Shown here piece by piece: positions 16,705 to 46,473 of a stretch of DNA of 64,000 bases. The notes beneath the pieces were generated by a model, which searched no databases, was not told the DNA's origin, and saw only the letters and a list, made by a program, of their open reading frames with translations. The translations under genes and the position numbers were made by a program. Numbering within the stretch: the stretch's first letter is position 1; the number at the start of each line of letters is the position of its first letter. Source of the stretch: Cytophagaceae bacterium (GTDB taxonomy: Bacteria; Bacteroidota; Bacteroidia; Cytophagales; Flexibacteraceae); contig CANGYH010000001.1 in the NCBI GenBank assembly GCA_947458545.1, positions 1,302,001 to 1,366,000 on the forward strand. Reading direction: 5' to 3'.

Positions 16705-16788
16705 TGCCCAGGACTGGACTCGAACCAGCACCCCGAAACCGGGACTACCCCCTCAAAGTAGCGTGTCTACCAATTTCACCACCTGGGC
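16705..16788 (-). tRNA. tRNA-Leu (anticodon GAG)
   Basis: Read on the minus strand, the acceptor stem is GCCCAGG / CCTGGGC with discriminator A. It has a long variable arm, T-loop GGTTCGAGTCC, and a 7-nt anticodon loop TTGAGGG giving anticodon GAG, which reads CUC/CUU. The 3' CCA is not encoded (CTG follows). The class II size of 84 nt fits tRNA-Leu. It lies 78 nt downstream of tRNA-Lys. Confidence 0.95.
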
Positions 16789-16820
16789 GGGGGAGAGCGT
16801 CAACCCGTTTAGAAGAAGAA

Positions 16821-16840
16821 GCCCTTACCGAGGTAAGGGC
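16821..16840 (-). terminator. Hairpin between the two tRNAs
   Basis: GCCCTTACC and GGTAAGGGC form a perfect 9-bp stem with a 2-nt loop. On the minus strand it is followed by a T-rich but interrupted tract (TTCTTCTTCT). It could be a partial terminator or processing signal between tRNA-Lys and tRNA-Leu. Confidence 0.45.
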
Positions 16841-16866
16841 AGCTGCTTCGTTTCGTGTTAACCTCG

Positions 16867-16939
16867 TGAACCCTCTGGGGCTCGAACCCAGGACCCCAAC
16901 ATTAAAAGTGTTGTGCTCTACCGACTGAGCTAAGAGTTC
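16867..16939 (-). tRNA. tRNA-Lys (anticodon TTT)
   Basis: The minus-strand sequence folds into a standard 73-nt cloverleaf with acceptor GAACTCT / AGGGTTC, D-arm TAGCTCAGTCGGTAGAGCA, anticodon loop CTTTTAA (anticodon TTT) and T-arm GGGTTCGAGCCC. The discriminator is A and the CCA is not encoded. It is the upstream member of a two-tRNA group. Confidence 0.96.
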
Positions 16940-25828: not shown

Positions 25829-25903
<75 letters not shown>

Positions 25904-25938
25904 TTGTATGTATTCAAAGCCAAAAGCGACTTGAATCG

Positions 25939-26011
25939 AGCGGGAGACGAGGCTCGAACCCGCGACCTACAGCTTGGAAGGCTGTCGCTCTACCAACTGA
26001 GCTACTCCCGC
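25939..26011 (-). tRNA. tRNA-Gly (anticodon TCC)
   Basis: Cloverleaf on the minus strand: acceptor GCGGGAG / CTCCCGC, anticodon loop CTTCCAA (anticodon TCC), T-arm GCGGGTTCGAGCCTCGT. The discriminator is T and the next bases are CGA, so CCA is not encoded. It is 35 nt upstream of tRNA-Thr in the same cluster. Confidence 0.96.
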
Positions 26012-26088
26012 AAGCGTTCTTACGAACGTTATTTGAAGCATGCCTTGTATAACGCTACTGCAAAACAGTAAGGCTATCGGCAATTGCC

Positions 26089-26174
26089 TGGTGGGGAGAG
26101 AAGGATTCGAACCTTCGAAGTCGTAAGACAACGGATTTACAGTCCGTCCCATTTGGCCACTCTGGTATCTCCCC
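26089..26174 (-). tRNA. tRNA-Tyr (anticodon GTA)
   Basis: A class II tRNA on the minus strand with acceptor GGGGAGA / TCTCCCC, anticodon loop CTGTAAA (anticodon GTA), a long variable arm and an encoded 3' CCA after discriminator A. It is the first gene of the Tyr-Gly-Thr-tuf transcript. Confidence 0.96.
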
Positions 26175-44300: not shown

Positions 44301-44791
44301 AGCTGCGCCAGTCTGTACAGAACGCCGCACTGGAGCAGAAAGACCCGCTGCTGGTGTACAAGTTTGAGGCGGTGAAGCTGTTCCGCAGCTTTTTGGCCGA
44401 CGTGAACGAGCAGATCATCACGTTCTTATTCCGCGCTGAGATGCCTCCGCTGCAGTTGGACGCCCCTATGGCCATGCCGCAGCAGGTGCAGCAAATACCT
44501 GCGCCACAAGGGGCAGCTGCAGGCCAAGAGGTACACAACGAGCTAGACGGGCTGCTGAATGCCCTGCGCACCCAAGCCGCAGGCCCCGCCCACGATACCG
44601 ATGTGCTAGACGAAGAGGCGGCAGATGCCATGCGGCCACGCCCTCAACCGGTGCGGGCAGCTAAAGAGCCTAACCGTAACGACAAAGTGACGGTGCGCTA
44701 CTTTGCTACCGGAGAAATCCGCCAGGCCAAGTTCAAAGCGGTGGAGGAGGACATCCGCCGCGGGCTGTGCATGGTTGTGGATATGGCTTAA
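41372..44791 (+). CDS. secA: Protein translocase ATPase SecA
   Basis: A 1,139-residue SecA, the ATPase that drives proteins through SecYEG. The Walker A motif MATGEGKTLVATLPAFLN, the DEAD-type box VDEVDSVLIDDARTPLI, MAGRGTDIKL, and SGRQGDPGSSQFFVSLED are intact. It is longer than the E. coli protein, as in other Bacteroidota, because of an insertion after the first helicase domain. The C-terminus lacks the usual CxCxSGKKxKxCH zinc motif and ends in RNDKVTVRYFATGEIRQAKF and a short tail instead. I use the ATG at 41372 (MSNLITKALSSIFGSK); the ORF opens earlier but the upstream part does not resemble SecA. A terminator follows. Confidence 0.98.
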   Translation: MSNLITKALSSIFGSKAERDLKELRPYVGLINAAWESLRQEPDAALRSRSAALKAQIAEGLKSVDAQVEDLRLKAQAEGTSLGEKDRLFDQIDALDKERNKQLEAILLQILPEAFALMKETARRLAHNGQLVVPASDWDVVYAQTHPHVQLADGQAVWPNKWLAAGTEITWDMVHYDVQLIGGVVLHQGKISEMATGEGKTLVATLPAFLNALAGRGVHIVTVNDYLAKRDSEWMGPLFAFHGLRVDCIDKHEPNSEARRQAYEADITYGTNNEFGFDYLRDNMAREVEELVQRKLHYAMVDEVDSVLIDDARTPLIISGPMAQGDRQDFEALKPRVSRVVEQQKVLVNRLLIEAKKLIADGNEKDGGLALFRAYKGLPKSKPIIKFLSEPGMRVILQKTENFYLQDNGRQMPEAVKPLYFVIDEKNNSVDLTENGLEFITAANEDPQFFILPDISTGLSAIEADKALSEDEKLQHKDQLLDEYSAKSQRIHTIHQLLKAYCLFEREVEYIIVEGKVKIVDEQTGRIMEGRRYSDGLHQAIEAKESVKVEDATQTYATVTLQNYFRMYHKLAGMTGTAETEAGEFWTIYKLDVVQIPTNKPAVRKDQQDKVYKTVREKYNAVVDEIVSLVEQGRPVLVGTTSVENSEILSRLLKVRKINHQVLNAKYHQREAEIVAEAGKPGTVTIATNMAGRGTDIKLTPESRAAGGLAIIGTERHESRRVDRQLRGRSGRQGDPGSSQFFVSLEDGLMRLFGSERISKLMDRMGMQEGEVIQHSMITSSIERAQKKVEENNFGIRKRLLEYDDVMNSQREVIYRRRRNALFGERLELDIQNIIYQSIVEAAQANPGAENAERFHLRLVHLFGFNPSMDKGDFGRLKPNETGSKVYQEVARRYRAHTDELAQQAVEVIETIRAQHGQGVDVVGIPFSTNKVGMQIPVQVEDALNGGSRAVRHGLERFSTLAMIDQAWKEHLREMDELRQSVQNAALEQKDPLLVYKFEAVKLFRSFLADVNEQIITFLFRAEMPPLQLDAPMAMPQQVQQIPAPQGAAAGQEVHNELDGLLNALRTQAAGPAHDTDVLDEEAADAMRPRPQPVRAAKEPNRNDKVTVRYFATGEIRQAKFKAVEEDIRRGLCMVVDMA

Positions 44792-44796
44792 ATTCG

Positions 44797-44834
44797 AAGG
44801 GGAGGCTTCTATTCTAGGAGTTTCCCCTTTTTTG
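44797..44834 (+). terminator. Rho-independent terminator of secA
   Basis: AAGGGGAGGC pairs with GTTTCCCCTT (10 bp, two G-U pairs) around a 13-nt loop, and a run of T residues follows. It starts 6 nt after the secA stop codon. Confidence 0.8.
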
Positions 44835-44840
44835 GGCTTG

Positions 44841-44870
44841 ACAAAGGTAAACCAATTAGTTTACCTTTGT
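44841..44870 (+). promoter_or_regulatory. Palindromic promoter/operator before the DUF4160 pair
   Basis: ACAAAGGTAAAC and GTTTACCTTTGT form a perfect 12-bp inverted repeat around CAATTA. Each arm contains a -7 box TACCTTTG (plus strand 44862-44869, minus strand 44842-44849). A TTG at 44838-44840 is 21 nt before the plus-strand box. The design suits an operator where a bound dimer blocks the promoter; the HTH protein encoded just downstream is the likely binder (inference). Confidence 0.7.
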
Positions 44871-44922
44871 GTGCATCAAGACTTTTAAAGTTATCTATGT
44901 GCTTTAGTATGGTGCTACGCTA

Positions 44923-45171
44923 ATGCCAACGGTATATACAGATGGAGCTTTGGCCATTAGGCTAAATGCCAGAAATGAGCACAATCCTCCTCATGTTCAT
45001 GTTTATTATGCCGAGCATGCCGTACGCATAGAGATTGTGACTGGAAGCGTGATTGACGATCCTAAGGGCTTTCCTAAAAGTCATCTGGCGAAAGCTCAAG
45101 CCTACATAAAGCAAAACCGAGAAACCCTTCTAAACAAATGGAACCAACTCAATCCAAATCTTCGGGGCTAA
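44923..45171 (+). CDS. DUF4160 protein (toxin-antitoxin-like)
   Basis: An 82-residue DUF4160 protein. The signature NEHNPPHVHVYYAEHAVRIE, with the two His residues, is diagnostic. DUF4160 genes are usually paired with DUF2442 genes in what are regarded as toxin-antitoxin-like modules; biochemical function is not established. It is 53 nt after the palindromic promoter and overlaps the next gene by 34 nt in another frame, implying coupled translation. GC content is lower than in flanking genes. Confidence 0.88.
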   Translation: MPTVYTDGALAIRLNARNEHNPPHVHVYYAEHAVRIEIVTGSVIDDPKGFPKSHLAKAQAYIKQNRETLLNKWNQLNPNLRG

Positions 45172-45686
45172 AGCTGGCCCAGCGCTTTCCGATACCTGTC
45201 AATATTTTATCTGTGGGACGGTTTACTATTACTGCTCTATGGAATACAGGTGAAATACGGGAGAATGATTTTTCTGGGGAAATGGCCGACTGGAAAGCTG
45301 ATCCTGTTCTTGCCCCATTAACTGATTTAAAGGTCTTTAGTAGCGCTATTCTTTTAGACCAAACCTTTGCCTGGCAAGAGCCTGCCTTTTACTTTGAGGA
45401 AGAACCAGGGACTCCGTATCCACGAACCATAGATCCTGTGCGCTGCTATCGGGAGAGTAGAGTTGTGAAAGCATTTGACCCTCCCAAGTACCTAGCGCAG
45501 ATTATCAAGTCTGAGCGCACCAAAGCGGGTTTAACACAAGTTGAGTTAGGGAGTCGGATTGGCTACTCATCCAAATACATTTCTAAGATAGAGCGGGGTA
45601 TTTCTGATGTTCAATTTGGCGTTTTTGAATATATCCTCCGGGTAGGTTTTGCCAAAGACATCAAGATTGAGCCTCTTGTGGCATAG
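45138..45686 (+). CDS. DUF2442 domain fused to an XRE-type HTH
   Basis: A 182-residue protein with two parts. The N-terminal 95 residues match the DUF2442 pattern (VGRFTITALWNTGEIRENDF, FSSAILLDQTFAWQ). The C-terminal part (about 115-182) is a helix-turn-helix of the XRE/Cro type (IIKSERTKAGLTQVELGSRIGYSSKYISKIERGIS). It is therefore a good candidate for the self-repressor of this operon, binding the palindrome at 44841-44870. It overlaps DUF4160 by 34 nt. Usual DUF2442 proteins are shorter (about 80-100 residues) and lack the HTH in many cases. Confidence 0.85.
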   Translation: MEPTQSKSSGLKLAQRFPIPVNILSVGRFTITALWNTGEIRENDFSGEMADWKADPVLAPLTDLKVFSSAILLDQTFAWQEPAFYFEEEPGTPYPRTIDPVRCYRESRVVKAFDPPKYLAQIIKSERTKAGLTQVELGSRIGYSSKYISKIERGISDVQFGVFEYILRVGFAKDIKIEPLVA

Positions 45687-45709
45687 GTTTCCTTGGCAAG
45701 CGAACAAGC

Positions 45710-45717
45710 TATCTTTG
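45710..45717 (+). promoter_or_regulatory. -7 promoter box (TATCTTTG) of the methyltransferase gene
   Basis: An exact TAnnTTTG match 18 nt before the ATG at 45736, in the 49-nt gap after the DUF2442-HTH gene. It indicates independent transcription of the methyltransferase gene, and it supports the ATG at 45736 over the in-frame start at 45649. Confidence 0.6.
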
Positions 45718-45735
45718 TTTGATCTAAGTTGTATA

Positions 45736-46473
45736 ATGGCTGTATCATCCTCACCTGCCACCGAGCGCAAGTTTGACAACTTTGATGCGTTTGCCTCAGA
45801 TTATCGGGCCATTCACACCAAGACGATCAAGATAACGGGGGGGGACAGCGATTACTTTAGCGAGCACCGCGCTTTAGAAGTTAAGCGTCGCCTGCAAGAG
45901 AAAGGCATAGACCTGCGTCAGCCGCTACGCATTCTTGATATTGGCTGCGGCGATGGCAATGCAGACAGGTTTTTTGTGCAACACCTGCAGGCGGTGCGTT
46001 GCGAGGGTATTGATATTACAGAGCCTGTCATAGCGTCTGCGCAGGCGCGCAATCTGCCGCATTGCCGGTTTCAGGTTTATGACGGTGAGCATATCCCCTT
46101 TGCAGACAACAGCTTTGACATCGTTTTTTGGGCCAATATTCTGCACCATGTGGAGCATCGCTACCACGCGGGCTTATACGCCGAGGCGCAGCGGGTAACC
46201 AAGCCGGGCGGGCTGCTTTTCAACTTCGAACACAACCCCTGGAACCCGGTTACGCGTAAGCTTGTCAAAGACTGTCCCTTTGATACGGATGCCGTGCTGC
46301 TGCCTCCTCCCTACCACCGCAGTTTGGCGCTTGGCGCTGGTTTTGCCAATGCAGCGGTACGGTTTACCTTGTTTTTCCCTCGTTTTGCGGCTTTTAAGCC
46401 TTTGTTGGGGTTAGAGAAGTATCTGCATAGCCTCCCTTTGGGCGGGCAGTACTATATAGAAGCTACCAAGTAG
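45736..46473 (+). CDS. SAM-dependent methyltransferase (class I)
   Basis: A 245-residue methyltransferase. Motif I is ILDIGCGDGNADRFF (about residue 66), then motif II GIDITEPVIASAQARN and motif III PFADNSFDIVFWANILHHVEH, which are typical of small-molecule or lipid-type class I enzymes. No target can be inferred. A long basic C-terminal part (FTLFFPRFAAFKPLLGLEK) may touch membranes. The gene stands between the DUF4160 module and convergent priA. Confidence 0.85.
   Translation: MAVSSSPATERKFDNFDAFASDYRAIHTKTIKITGGDSDYFSEHRALEVKRRLQEKGIDLRQPLRILDIGCGDGNADRFFVQHLQAVRCEGIDITEPVIASAQARNLPHCRFQVYDGEHIPFADNSFDIVFWANILHHVEHRYHAGLYAEAQRVTKPGGLLFNFEHNPWNPVTRKLVKDCPFDTDAVLLPPPYHRSLALGAGFANAAVRFTLFFPRFAAFKPLLGLEKYLHSLPLGGQYYIEATK

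Follow-up and report, generated by a model that had tools for sequence, protein, structure and literature searches.

A predicted DhiTA-like toxin–antitoxin pair with a helix-turn-helix antitoxin behind a palindromic operator conserved among its relatives

Behind secA, the window (the whole 64-kb stretch of DNA that was analysed) carries a DUF4160 gene and, directly after it, a gene for a DUF2442-type protein fused to an XRE helix-turn-helix (HTH) domain; the pair lies behind a palindrome that is a diverged form of an operator conserved in front of related HTH-type pairs (Table 1). With a probability of roughly 80%, we read this locus as a type II toxin–antitoxin module of the DhiTA kind, with the toxin gene first and its expression repressed by the antitoxin through the palindrome, where binding, repression, toxicity and neutralisation are all predicted. 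A preliminary description of this DNA had proposed that the module regulates itself and that its HTH protein might recognise the palindrome, a prediction strengthened by the conservation of the operator with HTH-type pairs. It had also called the activity unknown, which holds only in part, as the family includes a published toxin–antitoxin system (DhiTA).

Table 1. Features of the gene pair and its upstream region (positions in the window).
Feature	Position	Strand	Remarks
secA	3' end at 44791		directly before the terminator-like hairpin
Terminator-like hairpin and T run behind secA	44796-44833	+	16-bp stem; inverted repeat
TTG of the -33 element	44838-44840	+	21 nt before TACCTTTG
Palindromic operator (predicted)	44841-44870		diverged form of the HTH-pair family operator; covers spacer and -7 box
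-7 element TACCTTTG	44862-44869	+	matches TAHHTTTG of Flavobacterium (PMC6847099)
DUF4160 gene; putative DhiT-related toxin	44923-45171	+	82 aa; PF13711
Antitoxin/repressor gene (predicted)	45138-45686	+	182 aa; DUF2442-related N-terminal domain and XRE HTH
DUF2442-related domain, predicted toxin-binding/neutralising	45189-45473	+	PF10387 in relatives; role by analogy with DhiA and the Thermus module
XRE helix-turn-helix domain	45480-45674	+	PF01381, PF13560; fold like that of HipB and C proteins
Recognition helix SKYISKIE	45570-45593	+	diverged from family R(F/T/N/H)YISRIE

In Dickeya dadantii, the toxin and antitoxin of dhiTA have been demonstrated in both Dickeya and E. coli, and the antitoxin represses the dhiTA promoter, an effect that is stronger with the toxin–antitoxin complex (PMC8198452). 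The window pair resembles this self-repressed operon in having a DUF4160 gene first, a DUF2442-type gene second and an overlap between them, but the overlap is 3 bp in DhiTA (PMC8198452) against 34 nt in the window, the length that had been given earlier and that the coordinates of the open reading frames bear out. Unlike DhiTA, the window antitoxin carries an XRE HTH domain, and the window toxin falls below the cut-off of the DhiT model; the terms 'palindrom' and 'operator' are absent from the main text of the DhiTA paper (PMC8198452). The 'Persistence Enhancing Module' of Thermus shows the same order, DUF4160 then DUF2442, with the second gene required when the first is present, and no transformants were obtained in Thermus with a plasmid that carries the DUF4160 gene but lacks the DUF2442 gene (PMC12724237). 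In E. coli, by comparison, plasmids from which either Thermus gene had been deleted were maintained stably, and this host may be insensitive (PMC12724237). The Thermus module differs in being plasmid-borne and in the size of its DUF2442 protein, which at 92 aa is roughly half as long as the HTH-fused protein in the window (PMC12724237).

The DUF4160 protein scored 54.5 bits against PF13711 (gathering cut-off 23) and 49.6 bits (4.6e-13) against NF048015, the equivalog model of DhiT, whose curated cut-off of 100 it does not reach, so that the window toxin counts as related to DhiT rather than as DhiT; each of the 37 proteins in the toxin alignment matches NF048015 at E <= 0.001. Its structure was predicted confidently from 37 sequences (pLDDT 89.6, pTM 0.80) as five short strands and two helices. 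The residues H20, P22, P23, H24, H26, N77 and P78, invariant or nearly so in the family, are all retained, and the histidines may form a catalytic or metal centre. Against solved structures, one sequence search with the toxin returned nothing up to E 5 and another gave two matches at chance level. Foldseek with the toxin model returned nothing at E <= 0.001 (its best match stood at 0.88), and the best of its rows on re-examination (Z 5.2, rmsd 3.6, 78 aligned) lies in a range that the tool calls common and points to no function; PADLOC had no match for the toxin.

The HTH protein scored 32.1 bits against HTH_3 of Pfam (cut-off 23), while its first 110 residues were unseen by Pfam, with no PF10387 (DUF2442) up to E 1. 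Since PF10387 matches 17 of the 43 aligned proteins at E <= 0.01, we regard the N-terminal part as DUF2442-related through these relatives; of the DUF2442–XRE fusion first proposed, the HTH half is seen in the window protein and the DUF2442 half by way of the relatives. The ATG at 45138 is the sole ATG, GTG or TTG in the frame of this gene before the conserved part, and the overlap with the DUF4160 gene suggests, from the arrangement of the two frames, that their translation may be coupled. The best Foldseek match, and the nearest two-domain structure, was PDB 2auw, which is the protein NE0471 from Nitrosomonas europaea (given as unpublished in PMC9410881); it has the same domain order but only 16% identity to the window protein, and no description of an operator or partner was met for it; the match (E 2e-6) has a TM of 0.34 and an rmsd of 13.9 over both domains, and the domains are therefore placed differently in the two proteins. 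The HTH domain alone shares its fold with HipB-type XRE antitoxins and with the C proteins of restriction–modification systems (Z ~9-11), and the DUF2442-related domain had no counterpart in these matches. Both HipB-type antitoxins and C proteins have palindromic operators over their own promoters, and their partners are other than DUF4160. PADLOC matched the HTH protein only to HTH proteins of other systems, and no relative of it was found by tblastn (E <= 1e-3) in plasmid and phage collections or in a viral scan. The window pair is remote from its relatives, with a highest identity of 36% and a long branch in the tree.

The 12-bp inverted repeat reported upstream of the pair proved to be real but longer, a palindrome (ACAAAGGTAAACCAA/TTAGTTTACCTTTGT) with arms of 15 nt, 14 of 15 pairs complementary (93%) and no spacer. 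It scores highest (12) of all spacerless palindromes in the 64 kb; a single further one reaches 9, and scores exactly that. The -7 box seen earlier on each of its strands is perfect on both, TACCTTTG recurring on the minus strand at 44842-44849. If the start geometry is as in Flavobacterium, where the T lies at -12 and the G at -5 (PMC6847099), transcription would begin near 44874 and the leader would measure about 49 nt.

Two coinciding divergent promoters had been read from this symmetry, the minus one possibly giving RNA antisense to the end of secA. We consider it very unlikely that both work since, for all that TACCTTTG stands on both strands within the palindrome, the TTGs before the minus-strand box stand only 27 and 3 nt away, with none at 19–21 nt; moreover, of 37 operators from the window, four extra loci and the best 80 of at least 479 relatives, just two (the window and L111) have a -7 box on the minus strand within 40 nt, neither with a TTG at 19–21 nt. 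A palindrome laid over a -7 box yields a mirror-image second box, and the second box of the window is most simply explained as such a by-product. The hairpin at the secA end (-22.7 kcal/mol, z -3.9) was equalled by none of 200 shuffles; a consensus terminator scanner listed no terminator over 44700-45900, this hairpin included.

Conservation of the palindrome beside homologous pairs, proposed as a check in the preliminary description, was followed in a contig scan whose loci are the best 80 of at least 479 relatives. A full-length HTH-type antitoxin is present in 55 of these, of which 53 are titled as Bacteroidota, one (L096) as Neomarinimicrobiota and one (L107) only as 'bacterium', a spread biased by a query that itself comes from Bacteroidota. 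Promoter regions were compared from -130 to +15 around the toxin start, beginning with 58 toxin rows with an HTH partner and 44 without. Two copies (L003 of L063 and L002 of L072) were dropped, as was the second row in L085 and in L106; on the HTH-less side, two rows starting within 60 bases of the locus edge were also removed, which left 54 and 42; removal of rows with a promoter identity of >=80% then gave 53 promoters with an HTH partner, taking in the window and four extra loci (L005, L006, L008 and L014), and 34 in which none was detected. These 34 control promoters belong to DUF4160 genes taken irrespective of a DUF2442 partner, and they come from the best-scoring DUF4160 matches and from other taxa, so a control within the loci was added.

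A related palindrome is indeed conserved in front of the HTH-type pairs, of which GTATCTAATTAGATAC is an example. In this sample (the window, the four extra loci and the best 80 of at least 479 relatives), the octamer CTAATTAG occurs in 25 of the 53 HTH-type promoters (mean 0.19 and maximum 2 in 200 shuffles), and it is found in 0 of the 34 promoters of DUF4160 genes without a detected HTH partner. Within the loci themselves, it was counted 25 times in 7,685 promoter bases as against twice in 252,917 other bases. The relaxed form was defined as CTAnnTAG, allowing no more than one mismatch, with three of four outer pairs complementary; it was detected in 37 of the 53 HTH promoters when the window is counted (1.9 in shuffles), a clear site being missing in the other 16, and in 1/34 control promoters (0.68 in shuffles). 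Without the window, the exact and relaxed forms stand at 25/52 and 36/52, the HTH counts again coming from the best 80 of at least 479 relatives and the four extra loci. Palindromes scoring >=8 were similarly distributed, with 19/53 in the HTH promoters of this sample (shuffles 1.19) and 2/34 in the control (0.48). Full forms of the operator are represented by TGTTATCTAGATAGATAACA in L075 and ATGTATCTAATTAGATACAT in L006. The window site, GGTAAACCAATTAGTTTACC, has a core (CCAATTAG) one letter off that of the family and an outer half shifted outwards by one base.

The operator overlaps or abuts the span from -33 to -7 in 29 of its 37 sites in this sample, the remaining eight having no -7 box within 40 nt. 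The plus-strand -7 box starts at -16, +5/+6, +12/+13 or +15 from the operator centre, and the commonest TTG spacing in this HTH set is 20 nt (19 of 30 counted TTGs). The site is also found where the toxin is missing: of six toxin-less antitoxin genes among the best 80 of at least 479 relatives, five have an operator site directly before their start, a count without shuffle control that covers the mutual near relatives L066, L067 and L117 as well as L077 (CGAATTAG) and L100, whereas L068 had no such site before its start. From this retention it seems that the site goes with the HTH gene and not with the toxin.

These observations also bear on the rival idea that some other regulator reads the palindrome, or that it works as an RNA hairpin, and that it is not the operator of this HTH protein; we give this hardly any credence. 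The 20-bp core has no second copy within three mismatches in its own genome, the second DUF4160–DUF2442 pair of that genome included (the backward-read core pattern, as a control, had one place), and a single site offers no target set from which to name a reader. Against this, the motif accompanies the HTH partner and not the DUF4160 genes without a detected one (0/34), it is retained with solo HTH genes (5/6), it stands at only a handful of fixed distances from the -7 box, and it lies partly upstream of the presumed transcription start, as a DNA site would.

The palindrome is thus most likely a DNA switch by which the antitoxin lowers its own promoter, as far as position and conservation can tell. 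The 82-aa DUF4160 protein would be the toxin and the 182-aa protein the antitoxin, the DUF2442-related domain of which may cap the toxin while its XRE domain, as a dimer, would sit on the 30-bp palindrome. As the palindrome fills the gap between the TTG and the -7 element of the sole predicted promoter and covers the -7 box, the bound dimer, alone or with the toxin, would shut out RNA polymerase and hold the operon low. The toxin–antitoxin complex would be expected to repress more strongly, as published for DhiTA, and loss of the antitoxin would open the promoter and leave free toxin to slow growth.

The window combines its diverged operator with a diverged recognition helix (YSSKYISK, compared with T(S/T)R(F/T/N/H)YISR in the family). 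Among the relatives of the promoter sample, phenylalanine at helix residue 146 goes with an outer T (TGTTATC-type half-sites) in 16/16 cases, and threonine, asparagine, histidine or tyrosine with an outer G (mostly GTATC-type half-sites) in 18/20, the other two having an outer T. In the tree this association is clade-bound, with one independent pair on the starred branches and two on all, and with so few independent changes its Fisher value is not independent evidence; the pairing of helix residue and operator in the relatives is suggestive only. A further-reaching and rather doubtful reading, offered tentatively, is that an operator code of their own sets the HTH-fused DUF2442 antitoxins apart as a branch, in which the window pair has a further, co-diverged helix and operator, and that the toxin is a small enzyme with an H-x-P-P-H-x-H centre, no clear solved relative and an activity not catalogued so far.

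Toxin genes are not always kept beside these antitoxins. In the 55 loci with a full-length antitoxin (best 80 of at least 479 relatives), an intact toxin gene lies directly upstream in 37, one flagged as partial in 12 and none in six; two of those flagged as partial (L102 and L108) look whole at 76 aa, bringing the damaged genes nearer to 10 than 12, and the reverse loss is invisible in loci picked by their antitoxin. The six missing and up to 12 partial toxin genes beside intact antitoxins in this sample would fit a pair that no longer works as a toxin–antitoxin system, the toxicity of the DUF4160 protein being lost and the HTH protein kept as a local repressor only, and the window toxin does deviate at the nearly invariant positions E33, L35 and G48. 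We nevertheless think this unlikely for the window, whose toxin gene is open throughout its length and encodes a confidently modelled protein (pLDDT 89.6) that retains all seven of the conserved residues from H20 to P78 listed above.

Both genes are less GC-rich than secA, as had been stated at the outset (0.44 for the DUF4160 gene and 0.45 for the HTH gene versus 0.59), and DUF4160 genes are present in four of the 11 genomes searched in the bacterial family, its own genome counted; together, these observations fit a gene pair that comes and goes. In six family loci, secA did not turn up in the short flanks (~1.5 kb) beside the methyltransferase homologue, so that no empty site could be shown. 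No direct repeats were found flanking the pair, the one imperfect 15-nt pair nearby lying inside the genes. Contig C5 of the same genome carries the second DUF4160–DUF2442 pair (L031 1238-1716, minus strand), which is without an HTH domain and in which both domains were confirmed. Rfam detected only tRNAs over the 64-kb window, among them two minus-strand clusters at 16705-16939 (two genes) and 25832-26174 (three genes).

Pairs of this type are already known as toxin–antitoxin systems; for the operator of the HTH-fused DUF4160/DUF2442 variant, we found no description in the open-access literature, subscription papers being mostly outside the search. DUF4160 is common, with matches at E <= 0.001 in 152 of 395 genomes sampled from the phylum, and yet it is still named a 'domain of unknown function'. 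Within the phylum, one family has many such genes per genome, with at least 15 matches in one genome. Through its operator, the self-regulating, HTH-fused branch of the DUF4160 pairs can be recognised by sequence, and the variants of helix and operator among its members offer a natural set in which a change of specificity in XRE antitoxins could be tested.
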